Assembly (NCBI GenBank): GCA_019348555.1
Contig: JAHWJH010000007.1
Coordinates: forward strand, 1-40,245
Source: Actinomycetota bacterium
GTDB taxonomy: Bacteria > Actinomycetota > Acidimicrobiia > Acidimicrobiales > CADCSY01
Direction: 5' to 3'
Length of the DNA: 40,245 bases
The notes below the pieces were generated by a model. That model ran no database searches and was not told the DNA's origin. It saw only the letters and a list, made by a program, of their open reading frames with translations. Every line of letters starts with the position of its first letter. Position 1 is the first letter of the stretch. Below, one piece after another: positions 17,194 through 39,003 of this stretch. The position numbers and the translations under genes are program-made.

Positions 17194-17232
17194 CGCCGGA
17201 TTGCTAGCCCGTCGCCAGGGCCAGGGCAATCG

Positions 17233-19136: not shown

Positions 19137-19155
19137 GGCCTCAACCGCCTCGTGG

Positions 19156-19290
19156 TCACAGCTGGTGGCCCAGCCATCGCTCCGGGCACCCGGCGTCGTC
19201 CCAGACCTGGTCGAGGACGGCATCGGGGATCCGGCCGTCGGAGTCGGCCGCTTGGTGCCAGCCCACCCGCGTCAGCACGTCTCGAGCCAT
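19156..19290 (-). CDS. Small ORF upstream of a sulfotransferase, unknown
   Basis: A 44-codon ORF (begins MARDVLTRVGWHQ, ends CPERWLGHQL) ends 19 bases before the GTG start of the sulfotransferase at 19136. Its acidic, aromatic composition reads as coding, unlike the shadow frames nearby. The open frame continues upstream to about 19464 without a better start. It may be a small coupled peptide or the C-terminal end of a decayed gene, possibly the same sulfotransferase remnant that begins at 19501. Confidence 0.4.
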   Translation of the reverse strand: MARDVLTRVGWHQAADSDGRIPDAVLDQVWDDAGCPERWLGHQL

Positions 19291-23420: not shown

Positions 23421-25376
23421 ATGTCATCGCTGTGGTCCCGGCTCGAGCCCTTGCTGGCCCAGGTGCAGAAGCCGGCGCGCTACATCGGCTGCGAAGACGG
23501 TGCCCAGGTGGCCGAGCACGCTCCCCACAAGGTGGCGTGGCTGCTCACCTACCCCGACATCTACGAGATCGGGCTGCCCAACCAGGGCCTGCAGATCCTC
23601 TACGAGATCCTCAACGAGCGCCCGGACGCGGTAGCCGAGCGGGCGTATGCGCCCTGGGTCGACCTCGAGGCCCTGCTGCGGGCCCGGGGCGTGCCGCTGT
23701 TCTCGGTCGACACCCACCGACCTGCCGGTGACTTCGACATCCTGGCGTTCAACGTGTCGGCCGAGCTGGTCTACACCAACGTCCTCAACTGCATCGACCT
23801 CGCCGGAGTGCCGGTGCGCGCCGCTGCCCGCGGCCCCGAGCACCCGCTGGTGGCCGCCGGTGGCCACTGCACCTACAACCCCGAGCCCCTCGCCGACTTC
23901 GTCGACTTCTTCGTGCTCGGCGACGGCGAGGAAGTGGTGTCGGAGATCACCGAGCGGGTGGGGGAGTGGAAGGCCGGTGGGCGGGGCGCCGGCTCGAGGG
24001 AGCGCCTCCTGCACGACCTGGCCACGGTGCCCGGGGTCTACGTACCGTCGATGTACGAGGTCGCCTACGACGGTGCTCGTCTGGCCTCGGTCACCCCTCG
24101 GCACCCCGACGTTCCCGCCCGGGTGGAGAAGCGCACCATCGCCGACCTGGGCGAGTGGCCCTATCCCAAGCGCCAGCTCGTCCCCCTGACCGAGGTCGTC
24201 CACGACCGGCTCAACGTCGAGGTGTTCCGGGGTTGCACCCGGGGCTGTCGGTTCTGCCAGGCCGGCATGATCACCCGCCCGGTGCGCGAGCGACCCGAGG
24301 CCCAGGTGCGCCACATGGTGGCCGACGGGCTGCGCCGCACCGGCTACGACGAGGTGGCGCTCACCTCCCTGTCGACGGCCGACTTCAGCGGCATCGAGCG
24401 GGTGGTGGCCGACACCGTGTCCGACCCGGCCAACTGCGGCCAGGTGTCGGTGTCGTTGCCGTCGCTACGCGTCGACGCCTTCACCGTGGGCATCGCCGCC
24501 GAGCTGCAGAAGGCCCGTCGCACCGGCCTGACCTTCGCCCCCGAGGCCGGCACCTGGCGCATGCGCCGGGTGATCAACAAGCTCATCGCCGACGACGACC
24601 TCTACGGCGCCGTCGAGTCGGCCTACTCCCAGGGCTGGCGACGTATGAAGCTCTACTTCATGGTCGGCCTGCCCACCGAGACCGACGACGACACCCTCGG
24701 CATCGCCGAGCTGGCCCGGCGTTGCGTGGAGATCGGCCGCCGCCACACCAAGGGGGCGTCGGTGACGGTGTCGGCCGGCGGGTTCGTGCCCAAGCCGTTC
24801 ACCCCCTTCCAGTGGTTCGGCCAGAACACGGCCCGCGAGCTGCAGCGCAAGATGTGGTTGCTGCGCGACGACCTTCGACGCAGCCATGGCGTGGCGTTCA
24901 AGTGGCACGATCCCAAGGCCACCGTGGTGGAAGGCATCGCCAGCCGGGGCGACCGGCGCCTGGGTGCGGTCATCGAGCAGGTGTGGCGCAACGGCGGCAC
25001 CTTCCAGGAGTGGTCGGAGCACTTCGACCTCGCCTTGTGGGAAGACGCCATGGCCGCTGCCGGGTTGAGCGTCGACGATGTCGTCTACCGCCACAGGGAG
25101 CGCGACGAGGTGTTGGCCTGGGACCACCTCTCGGCCGGTCTTCACAAGGACTTCCTGTGGCAGGACTGGCGCGACGCGCTCGACGAGGTCGGCCTCGAAG
25201 ACTGCCGCTGGACTCCCTGCTACGACTGCGGGGCCTGCACCGGCTACAGCATCGAGCACGTGGTGGCCTCGGCCCGCCCACCGGCGGGCGGCAGCCAGGG
25301 CACCGGCCAGGGCCTCACGCTGGCGCCCGTGCCGGTGCACCTCGGGCCGCGACCATCGGCCAGGGCGGTCTCCTGA
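23421..25376 (+). CDS. B12-binding-type radical SAM protein (TIGR03960 family)
   Basis: 651 residues. The N-terminal 200 residues resemble the degraded B12-binding-like domain of this family (LTYPDIYEIGLPNQGLQILY near the start). The radical SAM core begins with EVFRGCTRGCRFCQAG, which gives the cluster ligands Cys272, Cys276 and Cys279, and continues through SLSTADFSG, SLPSLRVDAF and TFAPEAGTWRMR. A C-terminal CYDCGAC group may bind another metal. Members of this family are almost always followed by a DUF2344 protein, as here at 25465. Function is unknown; a link to RNA or translation is suggested by linkage to RNase E/G and L21/L27. Confidence 0.92.
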   Translation: MSSLWSRLEPLLAQVQKPARYIGCEDGAQVAEHAPHKVAWLLTYPDIYEIGLPNQGLQILYEILNERPDAVAERAYAPWVDLEALLRARGVPLFSVDTHRPAGDFDILAFNVSAELVYTNVLNCIDLAGVPVRAAARGPEHPLVAAGGHCTYNPEPLADFVDFFVLGDGEEVVSEITERVGEWKAGGRGAGSRERLLHDLATVPGVYVPSMYEVAYDGARLASVTPRHPDVPARVEKRTIADLGEWPYPKRQLVPLTEVVHDRLNVEVFRGCTRGCRFCQAGMITRPVRERPEAQVRHMVADGLRRTGYDEVALTSLSTADFSGIERVVADTVSDPANCGQVSVSLPSLRVDAFTVGIAAELQKARRTGLTFAPEAGTWRMRRVINKLIADDDLYGAVESAYSQGWRRMKLYFMVGLPTETDDDTLGIAELARRCVEIGRRHTKGASVTVSAGGFVPKPFTPFQWFGQNTARELQRKMWLLRDDLRRSHGVAFKWHDPKATVVEGIASRGDRRLGAVIEQVWRNGGTFQEWSEHFDLALWEDAMAAAGLSVDDVVYRHRERDEVLAWDHLSAGLHKDFLWQDWRDALDEVGLEDCRWTPCYDCGACTGYSIEHVVASARPPAGGSQGTGQGLTLAPVPVHLGPRPSARAVS

Positions 25377-25420
25377 TGCGAATGCTGCCCGATTCGTGGG
25401 CACTTGGAGCGGCTGAGCCG

Positions 25421-25456
25421 CCTCGAGCGTCCACAAATGGACGAGACGCTCGGAGG
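25421..25456 (+). promoter_or_regulatory. Stem-loop that could hide the ribosome site of the DUF2344 gene
   Basis: CCTC-GAGCG-TCCA at 25421-25433 can pair with TGGA (25438-25441), CGCTC (25447-25451) and GAGG (25453-25456) around a CAAA loop, with small bulges. GAGG is part of the ribosome site GGAGGG of the GTG at 25465, 7 bases downstream. There is no U-tract, so a terminator is unlikely. Translational control by occlusion is possible. Confidence 0.4.
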
Positions 25457-25464
25457 GCGGCCTC

Positions 25465-26307
25465 GTGAGGGTTCGGCTGCGCTTCGCCAAGCGGGGAAAG
25501 GTGCGCTTCACCAGCCACCGCGACGTCGTACGGCTCTGGGAACGGGCCCTGCGTCGAGCCGTGCTTCCGGTGGCCTACAGCGCCGGCTTTCGCCCTCGGC
25601 CCAAGCTGTCGTTCGGGCTGGCGTTGTCGACCGGTCACGAGTCGGTGGCCGAGTACCTCGACGTCGAGCTCGTCGAGGCGGTCGACGCCTCGGAGGTAGA
25701 TGAGCTTCCCTGGCGTCTGTCGAGCGAGCTGCCGACCGGGATCGACGTGGTCGCCGCCGCCTTGGTCGAGCCCGGCCATCCGTCGCTCCAGGAGCAGGTG
25801 CTCACCTGCAGCTGGCGCATCGAGGCGCTTCACCTCGAGCCCGGCCACGCCGCGCAACTCGTCGACGCTGCGCTCGCCGCCGACGAACTGGTGATCACCC
25901 GGTCTCGCAAGGGCCGGGAGGTGACCGACGATCTACGCCCGGCCGTGCGGTCGGTTGCAGTCGTCGGGCCCACCGGCGACGGCACCGAGCTCGACGCCGA
26001 GTTGGCGGTGCACCCCCGCAGCGTGCGTCCCGCCGAGTTGCTGGTGGCGCTCGCCCCCGGCCTCGTCGAGGGTCGGGTGCTGCGCAGCGCCCAATGGATC
26101 TGGAGCGACGGTGTCAGGGCCGAGCCGCTGGACGCGGCCGTCGAGCTCGGCGCCAGTCGCTCACCGCTCGCCGAGGCGAGCGTCACCCGAAGGGACCAAC
26201 CCGATGTCCGACCCCGCATCCGAGGGGGCGAGGGCTTCCCCGCCCCCGACCGAGAGCCTCGCTTCGCCACCGCCTCTCCAGGACGGCACACCGGCTCGTC
26301 GCCCTGA
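25465..26307 (+). CDS. DUF2344 / TIGR03936 radical-SAM-associated protein
   Basis: 280 residues. The N-terminus VRLRFAKRGKVRFTSHRDVVRLWERALRRA and the following SAGFRPRPKLSFGLALSTG are diagnostic of the family that partners TIGR03960 radical SAM proteins, sometimes as a fusion. The GTG start has GGAGGG 7 bases upstream, inside a hairpin. The last 35 residues are Arg/Pro-rich, and the last 104 bases of the gene overlap the start of the RNase E/G gene in another frame. The biochemical role is not known. Confidence 0.88.
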   Translation: MRVRLRFAKRGKVRFTSHRDVVRLWERALRRAVLPVAYSAGFRPRPKLSFGLALSTGHESVAEYLDVELVEAVDASEVDELPWRLSSELPTGIDVVAAALVEPGHPSLQEQVLTCSWRIEALHLEPGHAAQLVDAALAADELVITRSRKGREVTDDLRPAVRSVAVVGPTGDGTELDAELAVHPRSVRPAELLVALAPGLVEGRVLRSAQWIWSDGVRAEPLDAAVELGASRSPLAEASVTRRDQPDVRPRIRGGEGFPAPDREPRFATASPGRHTGSSP

Positions 26308-27844
26308 GGCACTGCCAGACGAGCTCCCCGAGCCCCCGACCGAGAACCAGCCCTCGGCGGCGGCAGCGGAGCGCGCCCTGGTCCGCGGCCGCCCGAGGGT
26401 CGGTGACACCATGCCGGCGCCGGGCGGTGGGGCGCTCACCGGGGCACCAGCGCGCCGGCGGCGACGGGGCCGCCGTCCAGGCCCGATCGCCGGGGCGGCC
26501 AGCGTCCAGGTCCCTCCGTCGAGCGACACCGCGCTCGACGACGAGGCGCTGGCGCAGCGCAAGGGCCGCCAGCGCCACGGGCGCCCCGTGGGTCGCTACC
26601 TGATGTGCGTGCACGTCGGTCGTAAGGCCACGCAGATCGCCGTGCTCGAAGGCCGCCTGCTCATCGAGCACTACGTCGCTCACGACGACGAGGCCCAGAT
26701 CCACGGCAACGTCTACCTGGGTCGGGTGCAGAACGTGCTCCCCGGCATGGAAGCCGCCTTCGTCGACATCGGCACGCCCAAGAACGCTGTGCTGTACCGC
26801 AGCGACGTGCACCTCGGCACCTCCGGCGGCGACGATGCCGGCCCCCCGCCGCGGATCGAAGAGCTGCTGCGGCCCCGCCAGACCGTGCTGTGCCAGGTCA
26901 CCAAGAACCCCATCGGGCACAAGGGCGCCCGCCTCACCCAGGAGATCTCCCTGCCCGGGCGCTTCGTCGTACTGGTGCCGAACTCGTCGACCTACGGGAT
27001 CTCCAAGCGCCTCTTCGACGACGAGCGCAAGCGCCTGCGGGCCATCCTCGACCAGATCAAGCCCCAGGACCACGGGCTGATCGTGCGGACGGCGGCGTCG
27101 GGGGCGACCACAGGGGAGCTGCAGCGCGACGTCGGCCACCTGGTACGCCTCTGGGAGCGCATCGACGAGCAGGCCCGTCGAGCCCAGGCTCCGGTCTTGT
27201 TGCACCGCGAGCCCAACGTGGCGGTGCGGGTCATCCGCGAGGAGTTCAACCCGTCGTACCGAAGCGTGATGATCGACGACCCCTCGCTCTACGAGGAGGT
27301 GCACGGCTACGTGGCGTCGATCGCCCCGGAGCTGTCCGACCGCGTCGAGCTCTACGACGCCGCCGCCGAGCCCCTGCCGCTGTTCGAGCGCCACCGGGTG
27401 CACGAGCAGCTGCACAAAGCGCTCGACCGCAAGGTGTGGCTGCCGTCGGGTGGCTCATTGGTCATCGAGCGGACCGAAGCGCTCACCGTGATCGACGTGA
27501 ACACCGGTCGCAACGTGGGCCGCACCAACCTGGAGGAGACGGTGTACCGCAACAACCTCGAGGCGGCCGAGGAGATCGCCCGCCAGCTGCGCCTGCGCGA
27601 CGTGGGCGGGATCATCGTGATCGACTTCGTCGACATGGAGCTCAAGGGGAACCGGGACGACCTCATGCGGGTGTTCCGTGAGGCGCTGGCGCGCGACAAG
27701 ACCCGCACCCAGGTGTTCGAGGTGTCCGAGCTCGGCTTGGTGCAGATGACCCGCCGCCGCATCGGCGAAGGCCTGATCGAGGCGTTGTCGAGCACGTGCC
27801 CCACCTGTGACGGCCGAGGTGTGGTGTTCGACACCGACCCCTGA
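26204..27844 (+). CDS. rng: RNase E/G family endoribonuclease
   Basis: 546 residues from ATG 26204. About 125 N-terminal residues are Pro/Ala/Arg-rich and disordered-looking. The conserved catalytic core follows: an S1 domain (IHGNVYLGRVQNVLPGMEAAF), the 5'-sensor and RNase H-like region, and the DNase I-like subdomain. The Mg-binding pair Asp431 (VIDVNTGR) and Asp474 (IVIDFVDM) is spaced 43 apart, as in E. coli RNase E (303 and 346), and the zinc-link CPTC at 532-535 follows 58 residues later, also the E. coli spacing. It ends soon after the zinc-link, so the long C-terminal scaffold of E. coli RNase E is absent. It would process and degrade RNA in the cytoplasm. Confidence 0.95.
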   Translation: MSDPASEGARASPPPTESLASPPPLQDGTPARRPEALPDELPEPPTENQPSAAAAERALVRGRPRVGDTMPAPGGGALTGAPARRRRRGRRPGPIAGAASVQVPPSSDTALDDEALAQRKGRQRHGRPVGRYLMCVHVGRKATQIAVLEGRLLIEHYVAHDDEAQIHGNVYLGRVQNVLPGMEAAFVDIGTPKNAVLYRSDVHLGTSGGDDAGPPPRIEELLRPRQTVLCQVTKNPIGHKGARLTQEISLPGRFVVLVPNSSTYGISKRLFDDERKRLRAILDQIKPQDHGLIVRTAASGATTGELQRDVGHLVRLWERIDEQARRAQAPVLLHREPNVAVRVIREEFNPSYRSVMIDDPSLYEEVHGYVASIAPELSDRVELYDAAAEPLPLFERHRVHEQLHKALDRKVWLPSGGSLVIERTEALTVIDVNTGRNVGRTNLEETVYRNNLEAAEEIARQLRLRDVGGIIVIDFVDMELKGNRDDLMRVFREALARDKTRTQVFEVSELGLVQMTRRRIGEGLIEALSSTCPTCDGRGVVFDTDP

Positions 27845-28609: not shown

Positions 28610-28672
28610 CTGCCAACCCTCCCTGGCCGAACCCCGGCCTGTGGTGATGCGTCGATCCGACGGTAGCGGGGC

Positions 28673-28678
28673 TAGGGT
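28673..28678 (+). promoter_or_regulatory. Probable -10 element, leaderless type, for rplU
   Basis: TAGGGT lies 8 bases before the GTG of rplU and no ribosome site is present between them. This fits a leaderless message. The 77-base gap to the divergent SDR gene leaves little room for a structured leader. Confidence 0.45.
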
Positions 28679-28686
28679 TGACGCCC

Positions 28687-29001
28687 GTGTACGCCGTGAT
28701 CGCCACCGGAGGCAAGCAGGCCACAGTGGCCGAGGGGCAGCGCCTCGACATCGAGTTGCTGGGTGCCGAGATGGGTGCCGAGGTCAGCTTCACTCCCGTC
28801 CTGGTCGTCGATGGGGCCACCGTGGTGTCGGCGCCCGGCGACCTTGCCGGTGCCACCGTCGCCGCCCGGGTGGTGGGTGAGGCCAAGGGTCCCAAGATCA
28901 GAGGCTTCACCTACAAGAACAAGAGCAACCAGCGCAGGCACTGGGGCCACCGCCAGCACTACGCCACCATCGAGATCACCGGCATCACCAAGGGGGCTTG
29001 A
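28687..29001 (+). CDS. rplU: 50S ribosomal protein L21
   Basis: 104 residues, the normal length. The N-terminus (M)YAVIATGGKQATVAEGQ matches the canonical MYAVIKTGGKQ of L21, which fixes the start at GTG 28687 rather than the upstream in-frame TTG. The C-terminus carries KGPKIRGFTYKNKSNQRRHWGHRQ, the basic 23S-rRNA-binding tail. It is followed 3 bases later by rpmA, the universal order. L21 is an early-assembling protein of the large subunit. Confidence 0.98.
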   Translation: MYAVIATGGKQATVAEGQRLDIELLGAEMGAEVSFTPVLVVDGATVVSAPGDLAGATVAARVVGEAKGPKIRGFTYKNKSNQRRHWGHRQHYATIEITGITKGA

Positions 29002-29004
29002 GTC

Positions 29005-29277
29005 ATGTCGAAGACCAAGGGTGGGGGCTCCACCCGCAACGGCCGCGACTCTCCCGGGCAGCGCCTGGGTGTGAAGATCTACGACGGCCAGGCAGTCAAG
29101 GCCGGCGCCATCCTCGTGCGACAGCGAGGGACCCGCTTCCACCCCGGCGACAACGTCGGCCGCGGCAGCGACGACACCCTGTTCGCCACCGCCGCCGGCC
29201 AGGTGAAGTACGGGGCCCGCAAGGGGCGCAAGCTGGTCGACGTGCTCCCGGGCGCCCCGAGCAGCACGGACTCCTAG
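29005..29277 (+). CDS. rpmA: 50S ribosomal protein L27
   Basis: 90 residues. [22 protein letters not shown] and [25 protein letters not shown] are the classical L27 blocks; the flexible N-terminus reaches the peptidyl-transferase centre. It has no cleavable N-terminal extension of the Firmicutes type. In many bacteria obgE follows, but here the next gene is a convergent beta-helix protein only 5 bases away, so the housekeeping block has been interrupted. Confidence 0.98.
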
Positions 29278-29282
29278 CCCGG

Positions 29283-31286
29283 TCAGGCCCGGTTCCACAC
29301 CTCGGCCGGGATCGGGCTGGGCAGGTCACGGCGCTCCCGCTTCCAGCGGACCAGCTCGAGCAGCACGGCCACGAGGATTGCGCTTACTCCGACGAGGGGC
29401 AGCCACGGGTCCTGCCGTCGGGCGACGGGGTCGGCGGGTGCGGGGACGAGCGTGGAGTTGTCGACGGTGACCAGCCCACCGGGATCGACCCGTAGGGCCT
29501 GGAGCGAGGCATTGACGTCCACCTGCTCCAGCCGGGCGATTCCCGTGCTGGCCACCGTCACCCCACGTTCGACCTCGGAGATCCGCACACCCCACAGTTG
29601 TGCGGTGGTGCGGATGTCGATGCCCCGGGCCGCTCCGCGAATCTCGTCGCCGCGAACGACGCTGCGGGGAGCATCGAGCTTCATGCCGGTCTCGATGCTG
29701 TCGACGATGGTGTTCCCGGTGATCTGGAGGTCGCTGGCGCCACCGTACGCCTGCAAACCGGTGTGGTTCCCCTCCATGCGATTGGCCGAGATGGTGTTGC
29801 CGCTGCTGGCCAGGTTGTTGACCCGCACGCCCACCCGGTTGCGGCGTATGACGTTGTCGACCACCACGTTGTCGGCCGACCCGAGCACGACGATCCCGTC
29901 GCCGGCGTTGTCCTCCACGAGGTTGTTCTCGACCCGGTTGCGGTTCGACTCGAAGTCGAGCACGATGCCGCTGCCGTCGTTGTCGTGGGCGTGGTTGTTG
30001 CGGAACACGCTGTCGACCACGAAGCGGGAGACGATGAAGCCGTGGTTCCCGTTGCCGTAGGCCTCGTTGTCCTCGATCACCAGCCGGGTGCTGTAGTCGT
30101 GGGGGTCGAAGCCGTAGGCAAGATTGTCGCGGAACAGGTTGCCCCGGAAGACGATGTCGGCCGCGTCGTAGGTGAAGACGCCGAAGAGGTTGTGATGGAA
30201 GTCCGAGTTGATGGCCGACCCGGTGATCCCGTCCTGGCGCCACGACACGCCATAGGCACCACCCGAGCGGTCGGAGCCCAGGTACGACATCTCGGAGTCG
30301 ACGATGTCGAGGCGCCCCCCGAGGTCGTAGAGCACGAATGGCCGTCCGTCGGACAGCTCCTCGTCGGGGCCTCCACGTTCGGTGTTCCACGAGGTGACGC
30401 TGACCCCCTCGAAGCGAGCGGTGGCCCCTCGGCCGCCGAGGAACACGTCGGGGCGGTCGAGCAGCCGCACAAGGCGGACGCCGGGCGCAGCGAAGACCAT
30501 CGAGGTGCCCGCCTCCTGGACGATGGCGGTCGCCACCTCGAACACTCCGGGCTCCACCTCGTCGATCCACGCCGGGTCGTTCACCACTCGGGCGAGGCGC
30601 TCGAAGGGGATGGGTCCAGCCGAGGCCGGCAGTGCCAGGCGCCGGACCAGCCGGCCCTCCTGGATCATCTCGATCCGGCCGGGCGCCACCACCATCGCCC
30701 GGGACTCCGGCGCCCGGGGGCAGGGGTACTTCACCACCCGGAACGGGCTGTAGGCGGCCAGCTGGCGGGTCGGATCGGTGCCGTGGTAGGCCGCCTCCTC
30801 TCCGCCGCGGTCGAGGGCGCAGGTGTCCTCCGGGACGATGGGAGCTGGGAACTCCGGTGCCGGCGGGGTGACCGCTGGTGCCTGGGCCACGACCGGCGGG
30901 GCGCTGGCGGTGCGCCGGACCGGAGACCTCCGGACGGCGGTCTCCGGTGCCGGGCGCACCACCACGATGCGAGGGCCGGTTTCCACCAGCGTCTCGGGCG
31001 CAGCTCGGGCGGGAGCGACGGGCTCGACGGCCTCCCGTGAGGGGGCGACGGGCACCGGTGCGGCCGGCACCGGTGCCGGCTCAGGTGCCGATGCCGTCGG
31101 CGGAGGGGTCGTCGGCGGCGTAGTGGTGGCCGGCGTTGTGGTGGTCGGCTGGGTCGTCGCCTCCTGGGGACGTCTGCGGTCGCGGGAGGGGTCCTCGCCG
31201 TCGACCTGCGCGCCGGCGGGAGCGGACAGCGGCAACACCAAGGCGACCGCCGCCGCCATCATCGCCCGGCGGCTGCGGAGCGCCAT
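29283..31286 (-). CDS. Membrane-anchored AlgG-like beta-helix protein, probable C5-epimerase, copy 2
   Basis: 667 residues. A signal peptide (RSRRAMMAAAVALVLPLSAPAGA) is followed by a Pro/Thr/Val-rich stalk of about 120 residues and an exported region starting near CALDRGG. The parallel beta-helix contains DPHD at residues 394-397 followed by NHGFIVSRF, then a run of turns such as GIVLDFESNRNRVENNL and DGIVVLGSADNVV. That order matches AlgG mannuronan C5-epimerases, in which the His of DPHD is the proposed catalytic base. A final membrane span at about 628-647 and a basic cytoplasmic tail anchor it outside the cell. It is the last gene of the operon; its ATG overlaps the upstream stop as TGATG. 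The activity is inferred; the polymer could be mannuronan or another uronan. Confidence 0.82.
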   Translation of the reverse strand: MALRSRRAMMAAAVALVLPLSAPAGAQVDGEDPSRDRRRPQEATTQPTTTTPATTTPPTTPPPTASAPEPAPVPAAPVPVAPSREAVEPVAPARAAPETLVETGPRIVVVRPAPETAVRRSPVRRTASAPPVVAQAPAVTPPAPEFPAPIVPEDTCALDRGGEEAAYHGTDPTRQLAAYSPFRVVKYPCPRAPESRAMVVAPGRIEMIQEGRLVRRLALPASAGPIPFERLARVVNDPAWIDEVEPGVFEVATAIVQEAGTSMVFAAPGVRLVRLLDRPDVFLGGRGATARFEGVSVTSWNTERGGPDEELSDGRPFVLYDLGGRLDIVDSEMSYLGSDRSGGAYGVSWRQDGITGSAINSDFHHNLFGVFTYDAADIVFRGNLFRDNLAYGFDPHDYSTRLVIEDNEAYGNGNHGFIVSRFVVDSVFRNNHAHDNDGSGIVLDFESNRNRVENNLVEDNAGDGIVVLGSADNVVVDNVIRRNRVGVRVNNLASSGNTISANRMEGNHTGLQAYGGASDLQITGNTIVDSIETGMKLDAPRSVVRGDEIRGAARGIDIRTTAQLWGVRISEVERGVTVASTGIARLEQVDVNASLQALRVDPGGLVTVDNSTLVPAPADPVARRQDPWLPLVGVSAILVAVLLELVRWKRERRDLPSPIPAEVWNRA

Positions 31287-33439
31287 CAGGCCCCGTTCCA
31301 GACCCCGGCGGGAACCGGGCAGGGGAGATCCCGCCGTTCTCGACGCCAACGGACGAGCTCGAGCATGACCGCGATCAGGACCGCACTGACCCCGATGAAG
31401 GGCAGCCAGGCGTCCTTCTTGGACGACGCCAGGTCGGAGGGCCGGGGGAACAGGGTGGAACTGGCGACGGTGACCATGCCCCCCGGCTCCACACGCAACG
31501 ACTGGAGGCGGGCATTCACCTTCACCTGCTCGAGCTGGGCGATGCCCGTGGTGGCCACCGTCACACCCTGGTCGACCTCGGAGACCTGCACCCCCCACAT
31601 CTGGGTGGTGGTGCGGATGTCGACGCCCCGGACCGCGCCTCTGACCTCGTCGTAGCGGACGACGGTGCGCGGCGCGTCGAGGATCATTGCCGTGTCGGCG
31701 CTGTGGAGGATGGTGTTGTCGATGATGTCGAGGTCGCTGGCACCGCCGTAGGCCTGGAGCCCGATGTGGTTGCCCTCGATGAGGTTGCTGGACACCGTGT
31801 TGCCGATGCTGTCGAGGTTGTTCACCCGCACGCCGACGCGGTTACCCCGGACGGTGTTGCGCGACACGACGTTGTCGCCTGAGCCCAGCAGCACGATGCC
31901 GTCCTTGTCGTTGTTCTCGACCAGGTTCGACTCGATGCGGTTGCGGTCGGAGCGGAAGTCCATCACGATGCCGTTGCCGGCGTTGTCGTGGGCGTGGTTG
32001 CCCCTGAACAGGCTGTCGACCACGAAGCGCGAGGCGATGAAGCCGTGGCTGCCGTTGCCGTAGGCCTCGTTGTCCTCGACGACCAGGCCGGTGGTGTAGT
32101 CGTGGGGGTCGAACCCGTAGAGCACGTTGTTGTGGAACACGTTGCCCCGGAACACGATGTCGGCGGCCTTGAAGGTGTAGACGCCGAAGAAGTTGTGGTC
32201 GAAGGTGGAGTCGAGGACCTCACCGGTCGAGCCAGCGAGTCGCCACGTCACGCCGTAGGCCGAACCCCGGTCGGAGCCGAGGTACGACATCTGTGAGCCG
32301 AGGATGTCGAGCCTCGACGCTTCCTGGTAGAGCACGAACGGCCGACCGTCGACCGGCTCCTCGTCCGGGGCTCCGGTCTCGGGATCCCACGAGGTGACCT
32401 CGACGCCGTCGAAGCGCACGTTGGCCCCCTGGCCGCCGAAGAACACGCCCTCCCGGTTGAGCAGGCGCACCGTGGTGACCCGGGGGGCGGCCACGCTGAC
32501 GCTGGTGCCGACGTCCTGCACGAAGGCGGCGCCGATCTCGAAGACTCCCGGCTCGACCTCGTTGATCCATGCCGGGTCGCCCACTGCCGTGGCGATGGCC
32601 TCCAGGCCGACGGGCTGTCCACCGGAGGCGAAGGCGATGCGGCGCACGAGCTGGCCGCCCTCGGTCAGCTTGATGCCGTCGGTGTCGAGCTGCAGCGTCC
32701 GCACCTCCGGGGAACGGGGGCAGGGGTAGTTGACGACCCGGAACGGGCTGTAGGCGTCGAGACGGTCACGCCCGTCGATGCCAGTCTCGACCGGGGCACC
32801 GGCGTCGGCACGCTCCACCGAGCAGGTGTCGACGGGCGGCGCCGGCTCGGGCACGGAGCCATCGGGCAGAGGGGCTGGTGGCACGACCGCAGGCCGGACC
32901 TGGGATGGTCCGACGGTGCGGGCCGGCGCCGGGCGCTCGTCGCCCAGACGGGGGCGTACGACGGCGCCAGGGTCGGGCCCGGGGCGGGCCACGCCCGGCG
33001 TGGTCCGCGGGGCGGCGGGCGTTGGTCCGACGATCAGGCCGGTGCCCGGGGGCGGCGGAGGTGGTGGTGTCCGCGGCGCCGGCGTCGGGGCGGGGTCGCG
33101 TCCGGGGACGTTGCCGGGCGACCCGGGGTTGGGCGCTGCCGTGGTGGTGGGCGCCGGCCTGGTGGTGGTGGGCGCCGGCCTGGTGGTGGTGGTCCGGGGG
33201 GCCGCCGTCGTCGTGGGCGACGGCGCCGTGGTGGTCGTTGGCGCAGGGGCGGTGGTGGTCGTTGGCTTCGGGGCTGCGGTGGTCGTGGGTTGTGGAGCTG
33301 CCGTGGTGGTCGGCTCGTCGTTGGCCTTGGGGGGCCCGACCTGGCCTTGCGGACCTCTGTGGTTCGTGGCACCGGCGTGGACGGGGAGCATCACCAGCAT
33401 CACGATGGCGGGGATCAGGGCTCGCGACCAGCGGCTCAC
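31286..33439 (-). CDS. Membrane-anchored AlgG-like beta-helix protein, probable C5-epimerase, copy 1
   Basis: 717 residues, a paralogue of the next gene over its whole exported part. The signal peptide ends near VHAGATNH; the stalk is longer (about 185 residues) and begins with repeated PTTT units. The helix domain has YSPFRVVNYPCPRSPEV, the AlgG-type DPHD at residues 444-447, SHGFIASRF and GIVMDFRSDRNRIESNL. The C-terminal span at about 678-697 and the tail ERRDLPCPVPAGVW are shared with the paralogue. Its ATG overlaps the stop of the synthase gene by 4 bases. Two epimerase-like copies could act on different patterns of residues, or one could have lost activity; both keep DPHD. Confidence 0.82.
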   Translation of the reverse strand: MSRWSRALIPAIVMLVMLPVHAGATNHRGPQGQVGPPKANDEPTTTAAPQPTTTAAPKPTTTTAPAPTTTTAPSPTTTAAPRTTTTRPAPTTTRPAPTTTAAPNPGSPGNVPGRDPAPTPAPRTPPPPPPPGTGLIVGPTPAAPRTTPGVARPGPDPGAVVRPRLGDERPAPARTVGPSQVRPAVVPPAPLPDGSVPEPAPPVDTCSVERADAGAPVETGIDGRDRLDAYSPFRVVNYPCPRSPEVRTLQLDTDGIKLTEGGQLVRRIAFASGGQPVGLEAIATAVGDPAWINEVEPGVFEIGAAFVQDVGTSVSVAAPRVTTVRLLNREGVFFGGQGANVRFDGVEVTSWDPETGAPDEEPVDGRPFVLYQEASRLDILGSQMSYLGSDRGSAYGVTWRLAGSTGEVLDSTFDHNFFGVYTFKAADIVFRGNVFHNNVLYGFDPHDYTTGLVVEDNEAYGNGSHGFIASRFVVDSLFRGNHAHDNAGNGIVMDFRSDRNRIESNLVENNDKDGIVLLGSGDNVVSRNTVRGNRVGVRVNNLDSIGNTVSSNLIEGNHIGLQAYGGASDLDIIDNTILHSADTAMILDAPRTVVRYDEVRGAVRGVDIRTTTQMWGVQVSEVDQGVTVATTGIAQLEQVKVNARLQSLRVEPGGMVTVASSTLFPRPSDLASSKKDAWLPFIGVSAVLIAVMLELVRWRRERRDLPCPVPAGVWNGA
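33130..33315. repeat. Low-complexity repeat encoding a PTTT-rich stalk
   Basis: This part of the copy 1 gene encodes about eight PTTT(A/R)AP-like units. At the DNA level it is GTGGTGGT-rich, and a 21-base unit (GGCGCCGGCC then TGGTGGTGGTG) occurs twice in a row at about 33150-33191. Such tracts are prone to slippage, so stalk length may vary between strains. Confidence 0.7.
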
Positions 33440-34671
33440 ACCGGCACCTGCTCCACCACCGGTGTCTGGCGCTCTTCTTCTTCGTCATCGTTCTGGGACT
33501 CGGTGCGGACCACCGCCCCGTCGACCACGGCGACGTCGCGTGTCAGCCACCGCTGGGCCCTGATCGTGAGCAGGGCGTAGATCTTGACGACCGCCATGAC
33601 GAACGACAGCAGGATGAAGATTGGCAGGATGAGCAGATCCTGGGGACGTCGCCGGAGGTGGGGCAGGATCTTGGTCGCCCGGCTCACCAGCCACCAGTTC
33701 ACCAGGGCGATGGCCACCAGCCAGTCGCCGCGCACCAGGGCGAGCACCAGGAACGTCGGCGCCAGCAGCAAGGTGAAGCTGCTCACCGCCTTGTCGAGCA
33801 TGGTGAAGGCAAGAAACGGCCGCTTGAACACCCAGCCCTGGGCCAGCGCCCGCAGGTCGCTGCGCCAGGTGTTGCGCGACCACCGCAGGCGCTGGAGGAA
33901 GAAGGTACGGGCGCCTTTGGGGAACGTCGACCAGACCCGGGCTGAGCGCTGCATGTAGGTGCGGTAGCCGGCACGCAGGATCAGGCTGGTGAGGCGCTTG
34001 TCGTCGCCGGAGTTGCACGGCACCCCCAGGAAGGTCTCGGCCATGAACTCCTCGGCGTGCTCTTCGAGCAGCCGGCGCCGGTAGACGGCGGTGCGCCCCG
34101 ACAGGCACGACACTGCCTGGCCCATGACCGTCTGGGCGGCGTTCTCGTCGAAGTAGCGGTTGTCGAGGTAGATGTCGTTCATCCGCTGCAGGATCCCGCT
34201 GGGGTTGTAGACGTTCTGGCGGGTGCCGACCCCGCCGATGCGGGGGTCGGCGAACGGCTCGCAGACCCGGTCGGAGACGTCGGCGGCCCAGATCGTGTCG
34301 GAGTCGACCAGGGCCACCAGCGACGTCGACGCGTGCTCCCACCCGAGCTTCAGGGCCGGGCGCTTCCCGGGGACGGAGGTGGGGACCACGGTGACCGGGT
34401 AGTCCGCGGCCACCGCCTGGCACACCGTGTCGGTGATGTCGATGACGCACACCACCTCGGCGACGTGTTTGTTGGCCAGCCAGGACTCGAGGGCCCGGCG
34501 AAAGATCACCGGGTCCTCCTGGTAGACGGGGGTGACGACGGTCATCGGCTCCCGGTGCGACGAGAAGTACGGGCGGTAGAGGGCAGCCGGCACGCGCCGG
34601 ATGAACCAGCTCACCCAACGGATCAGTCCGATGAGGCCGATCGGGATGTAGAAGGCGAGGTCGGCGCTCAT
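33436..34671 (-). CDS. Processive GT2 polysaccharide synthase, Alg8/hyaluronan-synthase-like
   Basis: 411 residues. One N-terminal span (about 5-24) precedes the cytoplasmic GT-A domain, and three to four spans follow (about 290-385). Catalytic motifs of processive beta-glycan synthases are present: the UDP/metal site Asp123-Ser-Asp125 (VDSDT), CLSGR at 189-193, the acceptor GDDK at 222-225 with the catalytic base Asp, and QRLRW at 260-264. The arrangement is shared by Alg8, hyaluronan synthase and NodC. It probably polymerises a uronic-acid nucleotide made by the dehydrogenase upstream and extrudes it through its own channel. No Alg44/PilZ partner is visible. Overlap with the epimerase-like gene downstream is 4 bases. 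Confidence 0.85.
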   Translation of the reverse strand: MSADLAFYIPIGLIGLIRWVSWFIRRVPAALYRPYFSSHREPMTVVTPVYQEDPVIFRRALESWLANKHVAEVVCVIDITDTVCQAVAADYPVTVVPTSVPGKRPALKLGWEHASTSLVALVDSDTIWAADVSDRVCEPFADPRIGGVGTRQNVYNPSGILQRMNDIYLDNRYFDENAAQTVMGQAVSCLSGRTAVYRRRLLEEHAEEFMAETFLGVPCNSGDDKRLTSLILRAGYRTYMQRSARVWSTFPKGARTFFLQRLRWSRNTWRSDLRALAQGWVFKRPFLAFTMLDKAVSSFTLLLAPTFLVLALVRGDWLVAIALVNWWLVSRATKILPHLRRRPQDLLILPIFILLSFVMAVVKIYALLTIRAQRWLTRDVAVVDGAVVRTESQNDDEEEERQTPVVEQVPV

Positions 34672-34705
34672 CGGCCGTCAGTTCGTCTCCTCCGGCGGGT
34701 TCGCC

Positions 34706-35653
34706 TCAGTGATCGGAAGGCCGCTCGGAGACGAGGGCCTCGGAGTCGGGGCCCAAGAGCTCCTCGACGTGGTCGGTGACCTCGGCCAACTCTACCCGCA
34801 CCCGGTGGGCCATGGTCCGGTTCACCTCGATGACCGCACTGAGCAGCGGCATGTCCACGCCGATCTCCCTGGCGAAGCCGAGGAAGCCGACGGTGTCCTT
34901 GGGCAGGCAGGCCCCGCCGTAGGGAGCACCGCCGCGGATGCCGTATTGCGGGTTGGTCGACCCCTCCGAGGAGATGGCCACCGTGGCGGCCACCTCGTCG
35001 CCGTTGAACCCGAGGTGCTCGGCGACCAGCCAGAGCTCGTTCCAGAAGCTGATCTTGGCGGCGTTGAACAGGTTGTGGGCGCACTTCACCAGCTCCGCTT
35101 CCGCCGTGGTGCTGAAGGTGCGCACCGGTCCTCCGAACGGCCGGAACAGCTCGACGAGGCGCTGGACGGTGAGGGTGCTGCGCGACCCGATCACCGTCAT
35201 CGCCGGCGACAGGAAGTCCTCGAGGGCGGTGGCCGCCCGCAGGAACTCCGGGTTCGAGGCCAAGGCGAAGCCCTCACCCTCGGTCTTGCCGGAGGTGGCC
35301 TCCAGGATGGGCCGGATCACGTCATCGCAGGTTCCGGGGGGTGTCGTCGAGCGCAGCACCACGGTGTGGAACCCGGACGACCGTCCCAGGGCGGCGCCCA
35401 CGTTGCTGACTCCGGCGGTCAGCGCCGACAGGTCGTAGCCGGTCGGTCCGCTCGGCGTCGGGAGCACCAGGAACACGATGGTGGGCTCCTCGGAGAGCTC
35501 GATGCGGTCGGTCGCCTCGTAGCCTTCGGCTCGAAGCTCTTCCAGCCGTTGTGGGTTGATGTCGACGAAGGTGACGGCGTGACCGGCGGACGCCAGGCCC
35601 TTGCCCGTTGCCGTCCCCACGACTCCCGAACCAACGATCACCACGTCTGACAT
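34706..35653 (-). CDS. UDP-glucose/GDP-mannose dehydrogenase family protein, short form
   Basis: 315 residues from ATG 35653, which has a strong AGGAGGAGG ribosome site. The N-terminal NAD domain starts with VVIVGSGVVGTATG. VVLRSTTPPGT, ASNPEFLRAATALEDF and the catalytic Cys249 in GGACLPKDT mark the family that oxidises a nucleotide hexose twice to the uronate (AlgD, Ugd). Most members have about 430 residues; here the protein ends soon after the central helix, so the C-terminal nucleotide-binding domain (PF03720) is missing, and there is no frameshifted remainder in the 34 bases before the synthase gene. It is the first gene of the four-gene operon and would supply GDP-mannuronate or UDP-glucuronate if active. 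Confidence 0.85.
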   Translation of the reverse strand: MSDVVIVGSGVVGTATGKGLASAGHAVTFVDINPQRLEELRAEGYEATDRIELSEEPTIVFLVLPTPSGPTGYDLSALTAGVSNVGAALGRSSGFHTVVLRSTTPPGTCDDVIRPILEATSGKTEGEGFALASNPEFLRAATALEDFLSPAMTVIGSRSTLTVQRLVELFRPFGGPVRTFSTTAEAELVKCAHNLFNAAKISFWNELWLVAEHLGFNGDEVAATVAISSEGSTNPQYGIRGGAPYGGACLPKDTVGFLGFAREIGVDMPLLSAVIEVNRTMAHRVRVELAEVTDHVEELLGPDSEALVSERPSDH

Positions 35654-35732
35654 CCGCCGTCCTCCTCCTGCGGAGCACGGCCTGTGCTCTCGCTGCTGAC
35701 CAGTTGTCGAAGATGGGATACGCCGGCTGGGC

Positions 35733-35745
35733 GAGTCGACGACTC
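35733..35745. promoter_or_regulatory. Perfect dyad in the divergent control region
   Basis: GAGTCG-A-CGACTC is a perfect inverted repeat midway between the dehydrogenase gene and the divergent beta-helix gene. A further half-site, GAGTCGTC, lies at 35781-35788. It is a candidate operator for a dimeric regulator of the operon; no regulator gene is in the window. Confidence 0.35.
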
Positions 35746-35842
35746 TCGAAGCGATCCCACTCGATCGGTGCTCGAGGGCAGAGTCGTCACAAGCGGTGCC
35801 AAAGTGCCGGACCGCAGCATCGTAGCCGCCGGGTCCTGGATC

Positions 35843-35856
35843 GTCACCGTAGTGAC
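35843..35856. promoter_or_regulatory. Inverted repeat GTCAC-N4-GTGAC
   Basis: A perfect 5+5 inverted repeat sits 6 bases upstream of the TAGCGT -10 candidate at 35863-35868, in the promoter of the secreted beta-helix gene. A repressor bound here would block that promoter. Confidence 0.3.
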
Positions 35857-35862
35857 CGCCGA

Positions 35863-35868
35863 TAGCGT
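35863..35868 (+). promoter_or_regulatory. Probable -10 element for the secreted beta-helix gene
   Basis: TAGCGT fits the TANNNT pattern, 26 bases before the GTG at 35895, with the ribosome site AAGGGG at 35881-35886 between. Confidence 0.35.
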
Positions 35869-35894
35869 CGTTCGCCGGACAAGGGGTGACCGCT

Positions 35895-36923
35895 GTGCGA
35901 GCCAGGATCCTGATCACCGTCGCCGTCGTGGCGAGCGTCGGCATCGCCATTGCGGTGACCACGGGGCCCGGGGACGACCCGGAGCCGACCGGCCGGACAT
36001 GGTGGGTCTCGGCGGAAGCCGGCGCCGATGGCGACGGATCGCCGTCGCGCCCTTTTGCCGCCATCGAGCCGGCGCTGGCGTCCGCCGGTCCGGGCGATCG
36101 GGTCGTCGTCGGAGCGGGCTCCTATGGGGCGTTCGCCACCGTCCGCAGTGGCCGGCCGGATGCTCCCATCCACCTCATCGGCGAGGGCGCCCGCATCGAG
36201 GGGCGCGGCGTCGGGCGGGTGGTCGAGATCCTGCACAGCTACGTGACCATCGAGAACTTTGAGATCTCGCAGGGCGACGTGCTCGTGCGTATCGTCGGCG
36301 CGAGCGGCACCCGACTGGTCGCCAACCGCCTCCATGACGCCGACAGCGAGTGTGTACGCCTCAGGGGCGGAGCCAGCGACAACGAGCTGGTGGGCAACCA
36401 GATCGAGCGGTGTGGCCTGCGGGACTTCGACCTGGACGCCGACCGGAAGAACGGTGAGGGCATCTACGTCGGCGTCGCCCCCGAGCAGCTCGAGGAGCAA
36501 GCCATCGCCGACCGGTCGGATCGCAACTGGATCCACGGCAACCGCTTCGACGTGGTCGCCGAGTGCGTCGACATCAAGGAGGGAGCCAGGCAGAACCGGG
36601 TCGAGGACAACGACTGCACCGGGGGCCAGGACCCCGAGGGCGCCGGTTTCTCCTCCCGCGGCGACGAGACCATCTTCCGGGGCAACGTCTCGACCGGCCA
36701 CGTCGGTGCCGGCATCCGGCTCGGTGGGGATGAGGAGGACCAGGGTGTGCGCAACGAGGTCGTCGGCAACGAGCTCACCGACACCGGTGGCTACGCCGTG
36801 AAGGTGGAGCGTTTTCCCCAAGGCCTCATCTGCGGCAACGAGGTCGGCGGCAACGACGCCGGCCTGACCAACGGCGACGTCGATCCGTCGCAGCCGTGCC
36901 CGAGCGGCGCTGCACCTCGGTGA
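35895..36923 (+). CDS. Secreted right-handed beta-helix protein, possible lyase or epimerase
   Basis: 342 residues from GTG 35895, chosen for AAGGGG 8 bases upstream. A hydrophobic segment at about 4-22 is a signal peptide or anchor. Then comes WWVSAEAGADGDGSPSRPFAAIEPAL, the entry motif of pectate-lyase-like helices (DUF1565 type), and the turns APIHLIGEG and GRVVEILHSYVTIENFEI. Later motifs ECVRLRGGASDNELVGN, GEGIYVGVAPEQ, CVDIKEGARQNRVEDN and GAGIRLGGDEE are shared nearly block for block with the larger protein at 37015. It is divergent from the synthase operon, so it probably acts on that polymer at the cell surface. Cleavage, epimerisation or binding cannot be told apart. Confidence 0.78.
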   Translation: MRARILITVAVVASVGIAIAVTTGPGDDPEPTGRTWWVSAEAGADGDGSPSRPFAAIEPALASAGPGDRVVVGAGSYGAFATVRSGRPDAPIHLIGEGARIEGRGVGRVVEILHSYVTIENFEISQGDVLVRIVGASGTRLVANRLHDADSECVRLRGGASDNELVGNQIERCGLRDFDLDADRKNGEGIYVGVAPEQLEEQAIADRSDRNWIHGNRFDVVAECVDIKEGARQNRVEDNDCTGGQDPEGAGFSSRGDETIFRGNVSTGHVGAGIRLGGDEEDQGVRNEVVGNELTDTGGYAVKVERFPQGLICGNEVGGNDAGLTNGDVDPSQPCPSGAAPR

Positions 36924-37014: not shown

Positions 37015-39003
37015 ATGCACGCACGCTCTCCCCTCAGGGTCCCGATCGTGGTCTGCACCGGGCTCATCCTGGGGTCGGTGACGTTCCTGCCGACGGCAGC
37101 CCAGAGTGCCGAGAGCGCGGTGCACTACTACGTGGCCCCCAGCGGGAGCGACGACAACGCGGGAGTCCAGCCCAGCGAGCCGTTCGAGACGATCCAGCAT
37201 GCGCTCGACCTGGCTCTTCCGGGCGACACCGTCCACCTGGGCTCCGGGACCTACAAGCAGGACGTGGTCACCGTGCGCGGTGGCGACAGCACCACGGCGC
37301 CCATCACCATCGCCGGGCCAAAGGACGCCGTGGTCAAGGGCGGGGGGAACGGGCGGATCGTCGAGGTCAACCACAGCTACATCGTGCTGCAGGGCTTCAC
37401 CATCGACGGCAAGTTCGACTCCGGTGACAGGAAGTCGGCGTATCGCGACAAGCTCATCTATGCCATCTCGAAGAAGGCCAATGTGGGGATCACTGGGCTG
37501 AAGGTCCTGGGCATGACCCTCCAGAACGCCGGCGGCGAGTGTGTCCGCCTGCGCTACTTCGCCAGCAAGAACGTGGTCGCCGGCAACACCATCACCGATT
37601 GCGGCATCTACGACTTCCGCTTCAACGGCGGCGGCAAGAACGGCGAAGCCGTCTACATCGGCACCGCCCCCGAGCAGTGGGGTGCGAACGGTGCTCCGAC
37701 CAACGACCCCGACAAGTCGGATAAAAACTGGGTGCACCACAACGACATCAAGACCAACGGCAACGAGTGCGTCGACATCAAGGAGTCGTCGAGCGGCAAC
37801 GTGGTCGAGCACAACGACTGCTCAGGGCAGAAGGACGTGAACTCCGCCGGTCTCAACTCCCGGGGCAGCGGCAATATCTTTCGGTACAACACCATCCATG
37901 ACAACCTCGGGGCCGGAATCCGCTTCGGCGGCGACAAGTCCACCGACGGCACCGACAACGACGCCTACGGCAACACGATCACCAACAACGAGGTCGGGGG
38001 CATCAAGTTCATGGCCAAGCCCCAGGGCAAGGTCTGTGGCAACACCTTCTCCGGCAACGGCGGGGCCGATGCGGTCGGGACCTATCGGGACGACTTCGAG
38101 CCGGCCGAGCCCTGCGACGGCGACAACCCCCAGGTCGTCGACACGGAGAAGCCCTCGACGCCCACGGATCTGACGGCCACTGCCATCGACGCCACGACCG
38201 TGAAGCTCACGTGGGACGCAAGCACCGACAACGTGAAGGTCACCGGCTATGAGGTGGTCCGCGACGATGTCCTGGTCGGCTCCACGGAAACGCCCGGCTT
38301 CGACGACACCACGGTGAGCCCCGACACGACGTACGACTACACGGTGCGTGCCGTCGATGCCGCCGGCAACACCTCGCCGGAGAGCGCCGCGCTCAGGGTC
38401 ACCACACCGCCAGGGCCGCCCCCAGGCTCCATCTCCGAGGACTTCGAGTCGCCTTCCGCCGCCGAGCGCTTCGAGGTGATCAGTGGTGGTCGCTGGCGGG
38501 TCGAGAACGGCGTGTACAGGCTCACCCGGCCGGGATCGAAGCGGAAGGCGAACGGCAATGTGTCAGTGCACGTCACCCCGGTCTCGGGTGACTTCTCCCT
38601 CACCGCCGAGGCTCAGGTCAAGGGCACCTCGATCCGCACCAACGACTTCTCGGTGATCTTCGGGTACCGGAACCTGAAGAACTACTGCTACGCCAGCTTC
38701 AGCGAGACCAACGACGGCCGGACCAGCGCACTGTTCCGGGTCCGTGACGGCGCTGTGACCGAGCTGGACGACATCACCAAGGTGATCGATGCCGACCGGT
38801 TCTACACCGTTGGCATCGAGGTCGACGACGATGACGTGCGAGTGACCCTCGGCGGTCAGGAGGTCGCCACCGCCACCACTTCGGGCTGCGGCGATGGTCA
38901 GGTCGGCTTCGGGAGCGCCAACGATGCCGGCCAGTTCGACAACCTGCTGGTGCAGCCCATCACCTCGACGGGCGTAGTCACGGCCCAGGAGCAAGGGGGC
39001 TGA
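37015..39003 (+). CDS. Secreted multidomain beta-helix protein with FnIII and C-terminal beta-sandwich
   Basis: 662 residues from ATG 37015, preceded by GAGGA 7 bases upstream. A signal peptide ends near TAAQSAESA. The beta-helix (about 35-365) repeats the blocks of the preceding protein: GECVRLRYFASKNVVAGN, GEAVYIGTAPEQ, ECVDIKESSSGNVVEHND, LGAGIRFGGDK. A fibronectin type III domain follows at about 380-465 (STPTDLTATAIDATTVKLTW, then YDYTVRAVDAAGNTS). Then a Pro-rich hinge leads to a domain of about 175 residues (ISEDFESPSAAERFEV ... QVGFGSANDAGQFDNLLV) that looks like a concanavalin-type jelly roll used for glycan binding. This is the architecture of secreted polysaccharide-active enzymes. 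The substrate is probably the polymer of the divergent operon, by inference. Confidence 0.82.
   Translation: MHARSPLRVPIVVCTGLILGSVTFLPTAAQSAESAVHYYVAPSGSDDNAGVQPSEPFETIQHALDLALPGDTVHLGSGTYKQDVVTVRGGDSTTAPITIAGPKDAVVKGGGNGRIVEVNHSYIVLQGFTIDGKFDSGDRKSAYRDKLIYAISKKANVGITGLKVLGMTLQNAGGECVRLRYFASKNVVAGNTITDCGIYDFRFNGGGKNGEAVYIGTAPEQWGANGAPTNDPDKSDKNWVHHNDIKTNGNECVDIKESSSGNVVEHNDCSGQKDVNSAGLNSRGSGNIFRYNTIHDNLGAGIRFGGDKSTDGTDNDAYGNTITNNEVGGIKFMAKPQGKVCGNTFSGNGGADAVGTYRDDFEPAEPCDGDNPQVVDTEKPSTPTDLTATAIDATTVKLTWDASTDNVKVTGYEVVRDDVLVGSTETPGFDDTTVSPDTTYDYTVRAVDAAGNTSPESAALRVTTPPGPPPGSISEDFESPSAAERFEVISGGRWRVENGVYRLTRPGSKRKANGNVSVHVTPVSGDFSLTAEAQVKGTSIRTNDFSVIFGYRNLKNYCYASFSETNDGRTSALFRVRDGAVTELDDITKVIDADRFYTVGIEVDDDDVRVTLGGQEVATATTSGCGDGQVGFGSANDAGQFDNLLVQPITSTGVVTAQEQGG

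Follow-up and report, generated by a model that had tools for sequence, protein, structure and literature searches.

The 40,245-bp window analysed here, which is the entire contig C261 of a 2.76-Mb, 86% complete metagenome-assembled genome (MAG), carries a six-gene locus that probably makes an alginate-type polymer, that is, mannuronan converted to a mannuronate/guluronate (M/G) polymer in a monoderm cell. Very probably, the locus encodes some kind of uronan synthase-epimerase system. The original prediction had placed four genes, overlapping or nearly touching, on one strand of DNA from a probable actinobacterium, and both points hold. The source is a probable acidimicrobial actinobacterium whose cell probably has a single membrane, and the minus-strand genes for a nucleotide-sugar dehydrogenase, a processive GT2 synthase and two beta-helix proteins, A and B, occupy positions 29283-35653, with 34 bases between the dehydrogenase and GT2 genes, a 4-base overlap between GT2 and A and a 1-base overlap between A and B. 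Two plus-strand genes for secreted-type beta-helix proteins, which that prediction did not mention, diverge from the dehydrogenase gene.

Our comparison of the beta-helix proteins A and B with known families shows that both resemble AlgG in profile and active site, and B, as modelled, also in fold. Both match the AlgG family model NF038177 and carry the motif YGFDPHD (Table 1). The best solved relatives of B are AlgG (PDB 4nk6, E=9.7e-33) and then the AlgE epimerases, and its alignment with 4nk6 brings into register the catalytic tyrosine, the DPHD motif and the charge-shielding arginine, the roles of which are taken from PMC4444821. An AlphaFold2 model of B (mean pLDDT 85, built with four sequences) forms a right-handed beta-helix that overlays AlgG with Z 38.0 and 1.7 Å over 339 residues. 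AlgE6 reaches Z 32.5 and the first non-epimerase about 29, and the top ranks are all mannuronan epimerases. These proteins had been predicted to be AlgG-like with a DPHD site, and the profile, the alignment and the overlay bear this out; we looked for best matches to non-epimerase families and for a DPHD site that does not superpose on that of AlgG, and the outcome favours AlgG. Sequence and model together thus support the assignment of A and B as AlgG-type epimerases with predicted mannuronan activity. A solved epimerase/lyase of the DPHD type (8ja4/8jaz), and the loss of DPHD in two relatives (L035 and L037), would suit the alternative that A and B are lyases or inactive binding scaffolds. 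However, both proteins keep the tyrosine, DPHD and the arginine, and B overlays 8ja4 with Z 29.1 as against its far higher score with AlgG, which makes this alternative very improbable.

Each of the two proteins has a signal-like N-terminal segment and a single C-terminal membrane span followed by an Arg-rich tail. The original prediction tethered them to the outer face of the membrane by a C-terminal span and a long stalk. The span and the outer-face topology stand, but the stalk does not: the Pro/Thr-rich region (~180 residues in A and ~130 in B) separates the signal segment from the beta-helix and so forms an N-terminal arm, and the linker from beta-helix to membrane is short.

Of all the hints to the identity of the polymer, the divergent pair of genes gives the strongest. 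In profile searches, the best solved relative of their products is the PL31 alginate lyase PsAly (6kfn, E=5e-16); further beta-helix enzymes, including PL6 lyases, come after it. A model of lyase A (pLDDT 86.8) finds 6kfn as its top Foldseek match (E=2.6e-13) and overlays PsAly with Z 35.0 and 2.1 Å over 277 residues. PsAly prefers polymannuronate, with Tyr184 and Lys221 as catalytic residues and Glu181, Glu216 and Asp219 as cation ligands (PMC6796002), and in the 6kfn alignment all five map to GEGIY and ECVDIK in the predicted lyases. Lyase B also has a fibronectin-III domain and, by eye, a C-terminal domain like a carbohydrate-binding sandwich. The divergent PL31-like genes therefore strengthen the alginate reading. 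Given that many bacteria feed on alginate as a source of carbon, the presence of lyases would also be expected of a locus that degrades algal alginate as food, with the GT2 incidental to it. This is extremely improbable, because the order of synthase, dehydrogenase and epimerase is conserved, relatives carry the fusions described below, and no uptake or KDG genes were seen beside the locus. The same genome encodes a third PL31-like protein away from the locus (L056, G000:C250, 7385-9376).

Sequence comparison indicates that the GT2 is a processive synthase of the NodC/hyaluronan-synthase kind and not a member of the Alg8 family. It matches the NodC profile with E=7e-33 and hyaluronan synthase (HAS) with E=7e-23, and its closest solved synthases are hyaluronan synthases. 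Its bit scores are 101 with NodC, 84 with the Chlorella-virus hyaluronan synthase (CvHAS), 67 with XlHAS1, and 43 and 33 with our Alg8 references, two Rhizobium Alg8-like proteins identified by their context in alginate-type operons; it is because the latter score so far below NodC and HAS that we place the enzyme outside Alg8. In particular, it has the motif GDDKRLT and not GDDKSSW, and it carries DxD, GDD, QxxRW, a gating-loop-like C-terminal WLTR and C-terminal membrane helices. With 114 bits, it misses the 550-bit cut-off of the NodC equivalog TIGR04242. The locus had been described as an AlgD-Alg8-AlgG core, of which the processive GT2, the dehydrogenase of the UGD/GMD superfamily and the AlgG-type proteins remain, but the GT2 is not Alg8-like and AlgD's third domain is missing from the dehydrogenase. 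As is known from hyaluronan synthase, a synthase of this type polymerises and translocates its chain alone, which fits an envelope that has no outer membrane. Since hyaluronan synthases alternate two sugars, their kinship to the GT2 could also point to a hyaluronan-like heteropolymer in which a uronic acid alternates with another sugar and is modified by the epimerases. We consider this quite improbable, as there is no amino-sugar gene among the six genes of the locus and the lyases match homopolymer lyases.

The dehydrogenase, as predicted, belongs to the UGD/GMD superfamily. It consists of the NAD-binding and central domains, with the NAD site, NPEFLR and the catalytic cysteine (in GGACLPKD) all present in the alignment, and its TIGR03026 score lies above the cut-off of 189.8 bits. 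Unlike AlgD and UGD, which follow a three-domain plan, it has no C-terminal nucleotide-binding domain (PF03720). The same two-domain enzyme occurs in six other clusters, together forming one clade (100/99), and two full-length members of the family are encoded elsewhere in the genome. The enzyme scores alike with dehydrogenases of UDP-glucose (E=9e-41) and of GDP-mannose (E=2e-39). This equality, the resemblance of the GT2 to NodC and hyaluronan synthase as users of UDP-sugars, and a full-length UGD-like enzyme at a related locus (L037) would be accommodated by a glucuronan or mixed glucuronic acid (GlcA) polymer made from UDP-GlcA, on which the AlgG-like enzymes would make L-iduronate and not L-guluronate. 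Against it, the dehydrogenases of these clusters have CLPKD and the closest ones P-x-MTV(I/V), as in AlgD, whereas the aligned UGDs have CFPKD and PDRIVIG; in these details (CLPKD, P-x-MTVIG), the enzyme of the window appears to resemble AlgD more than UGD. The lyases, moreover, match a polymannuronate lyase, PL7 and GH113 genes neighbour the epimerases of relatives, and the characterised DPHD beta-helix C5-epimerases, to our knowledge, all act on mannuronan. We therefore regard a glucuronan as unlikely.

The arrangement of the locus is conserved. A sister species (G001, contig JAHWJI010000080; L018/L023) has the six genes in synteny, with the second epimerase truncated by the contig end; another contig of that genome starts with the last codons of the second epimerase, after which come a third epimerase (DPHS) and cysD-cysN-cysC. 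A third species (G002, L055) has the two lyases, the dehydrogenase and the GT2 up to the contig end; because this contig stops just past the GT2, we do not count the epimerases as absent there. Outside the genus, in other actinobacterial families, the core is found in Acidimicrobiales SJ307 (L024), G071, G244 and G094, and with a different GT2 in G032. Synteny within the genus and a core in at least five more loci argue that the six-gene arrangement is not due to chance. Epimerase matches are rare: counting the genome of the window, they occur in 5 of the 396 genomes of a phylum sample and in 2 of the 395 of a class sample.

In two of these families, the synthase is fused to the epimerase. In L024, the GT2 is followed by the epimerase in one open frame, and in L036 the epimerase comes first, with its C-terminal span running into the GT2. 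Codon-position G+C indicates an unbroken coding frame through both fusions, each of which is known from a single MAG contig. The opposite orders imply separate fusion events, and of all the present observations these speak most strongly for a synthase and an epimerase that may act as a unit. An apparent GT2-epimerase fusion in L034 was rejected, as a frame change interrupts its GT2 and its epimerase begins at a start of its own. A GT2 on a Streptomyces plasmid (H1, 43% identity) was not counted; no dehydrogenase or epimerase lies beside it. Epimerase matches on Rhizobium megaplasmids (H31, H35) were rejected as relatives, since they belong to alginate-type operons with full-length AlgD-like and Alg8-like proteins, and were kept as references. 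On Rhizobium megaplasmids, L044 and L045 are unannotated operons of the alginate type that encode AlgD-like and Alg8-like proteins and a 1250-residue AlgG-like protein with a long N-terminal region.

Enzymes encoded near the epimerases of relatives bear on the polymer as well. Within the genus, G003 encodes a PL7 alginate lyase (PF08787, E=1.2e-36) not far from a DPHD epimerase of the secreted kind, and the gene that comes next after the epimerase of G032 encodes a GH113 protein (mannanase family). These neighbours would fit a manno-configured uronan, without proving it. Secreted DPHD epimerases form a second type in the genus (L019, G000:C208, 2967-5384; L020, G003:C27, 6126-8075), and the one on C208 ends, by eye, in SLH-like cell-wall repeats. 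The truncated beta-helix protein at the end of the window matches this C208 protein with E=1.3e-67.

Several observations weigh against an alginate-type product. The dehydrogenase is without its third, nucleotide-binding domain, and it groups with AlgD (80/81) only in a tree that includes WecC, a long outgroup; without WecC, it falls in a third, separate clade. The GT2 is nearer to NodC and HAS, which use UDP-sugars, than to Alg8. The epimerases reach 127.6 (A) and 136.6 (B) bits with NF038177, short of its equivalog cut-off of 700 bits, and His154, Asp250 and Lys252 of PsAly are replaced in the lyases. Finally, DPHD is DPHT or DPHS, or lost, in some relatives (L035, L037), and an active mannuronan epimerase is therefore not required of every member. 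Relatives without an intact DPHD (lost or altered to DAHS) are encoded beside a GT2 at L035 10084-11775 and L037 4013-5812; they are perhaps scaffolds or have an altered chemistry.

From the computed homologies, folds, active-site residues, gene order and fusions, we infer a substrate, a donor, an order of events, an action at the outer face and a role for the lyases, as follows. In the cytoplasm, the short dehydrogenase would make the uronic acid by oxidation of a nucleotide sugar, with GDP-mannose favoured. The HAS-like GT2 would polymerise a beta-1,4-linked uronan on the cytoplasmic side and export the chain through its own membrane channel, and with such export Alg44, AlgK and AlgE would not be needed. 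At the outer face, the two anchored AlgG-type epimerases would invert C5 as the chain emerges, and the two secreted PL31-like lyases may trim or release it.

Table 1. Features of the locus and of the contig end, in window coordinates.
Feature	Position	Strand	Basis or remark
Short NDP-sugar dehydrogenase, 315 aa	34706..35653	-	Pfam PF03721+PF00984; TIGR03026 203.6 bits
Processive GT2 synthase, 411 aa, NodC/hyaluronan-synthase type	33436..34671	-	DSD, GDDKRLT, QRLRW, WLTR
AlgG-like C5-epimerase A, 717 aa, start GTG	31286..33439	-	NF038177 E=5.5e-37; DPHD 444-447
AlgG-like C5-epimerase B, 667 aa, start ATG	29283..31286	-	NF038177 E=1e-39; DPHD 394-397
PL31-like alginate lyase A, 345 aa, start uncertain	35886..36923	+	6kfn profile and fold match
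PL31-like alginate lyase B with fibronectin-III	37015..39003	+	Start placed by signal segment and L018 homologue
Divergent intergenic region, 232 bases	35654..35885	.	Coordinates only; promoters of both arms presumed
Third AlgG-like secreted-type beta-helix, C-terminal 155 aa, truncated by contig end	39777..40244	-	NF038177 E=6.8e-6

The ribosome site of the dehydrogenase gene is AGGAGGAGG. Next to the locus (window 28672-29285 and 23421-27844) lie genes for ribosomal proteins L21 and, by eye, L27, as well as for an RNase E/G-like and a radical SAM protein. Both sister species likewise have RNase E/G and radical SAM genes beside it. Elsewhere in the window, four sulfotransferase-family genes (10633-11523, 16297-17883, 17233-18141 and 18105-19223) lie among genes for glycosyltransferases, an ABC transporter and a Wzz-like protein, and this group is probably a separate cluster for a sulfated polysaccharide on the same contig. 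In the two sister species, genes for the synthesis of 3'-phosphoadenosine 5'-phosphosulfate (PAPS) lie near the locus itself: cysD-cysN-cysC directly follows the third epimerase in G001 (L022, G001:C100, 2285-5137), cysN-cysC lies ~6 kb from the lyases in G002 (L055, G002:C67, 1-1588), and the gene after lyase B in G001 is inositol-phosphatase/CysQ-like. Given these genes, sulfation of the polymer is possible.

As far as we have found, alginate synthesis is known experimentally only from Gram-negative bacteria and brown algae, and a literature search that covered few subscription papers returned no experimental actinobacterial alginate system. The idea of an actinobacterial pathway is already known: a proposal of 2010, taken up again in PMC8307928 and PMC4444821, derives the alginate enzymes of brown algae from an actinobacterium. 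According to PMC11468063, actinobacterial proteins are the closest to the algal epimerases (~30% identity), an actinobacterial origin of the algal dehydrogenase is no longer strongly supported, and the mannuronan synthase of brown algae has yet to be identified and is no homologue of Alg8. A survey of synthase-dependent operons found alginate operons mainly in Pseudomonas (PMC7112194). The variant described here differs from the known systems. It would represent a minimal alginate-making machine, possibly a single protein, and a HAS-type GT2 paired or fused with an AlgG-type epimerase gives a candidate synthase type that could be expressed and sought in algae. With the locus, the actinobacterial origin proposed for the algal pathway could also be tested.

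Compared with the operon of Pseudomonas and Azotobacter (algD-8-44-K-E-G-X-L-I-J-F-A), the locus likewise encodes a dehydrogenase, a processive GT2, an AlgG-type epimerase and a lyase together, but its GT2 is not Alg8-like, its dehydrogenase has two domains, its anchored epimerases are doubled and its lyases are PL31-like and not PL5. Acetylation genes are missing from it, and so are the envelope parts, as predicted: none of Alg44, AlgK, AlgE and AlgX was found among the six genes or the other scanned genes of the window, no genome-wide search having been made. The predicted epimerases share with AlgG (4nk6) the fold, the YG-DPHD motif and the shielding arginine, but are only 29% identical, score below the equivalog cut-off and have an N-terminal Pro/Thr-rich arm and a C-terminal span. 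The lyases share with PsAly, from Paenibacillus, the fold and the catalytic and cation residues, but are 24% identical to it, have three residues replaced and, in lyase B, two extra domains. The GT2 shares DSD, GDD-RLT, Q-RW, W-TR and the C-terminal membrane helices with class I hyaluronan synthase and NodC, but is paired with a dehydrogenase and a C5-epimerase, and some relatives are fused to the epimerase. The brown-algal pathway, by its published description, is alike in having DPHD epimerases with actinobacterial proteins as nearest bacterial kin and a synthase that is not homologous to Alg8. We suggest, tentatively and as a possibility that we ourselves find doubtful, that Actinobacteria have a separate alginate machinery in which a HAS-like mannuronan synthase is coupled, by adjacency or by fusion in either order, to an anchored epimerase that edits the chain on its way out, and that this lineage, and not that of Alg8, is the kind of source from which the brown-algal synthase and epimerase could have come.

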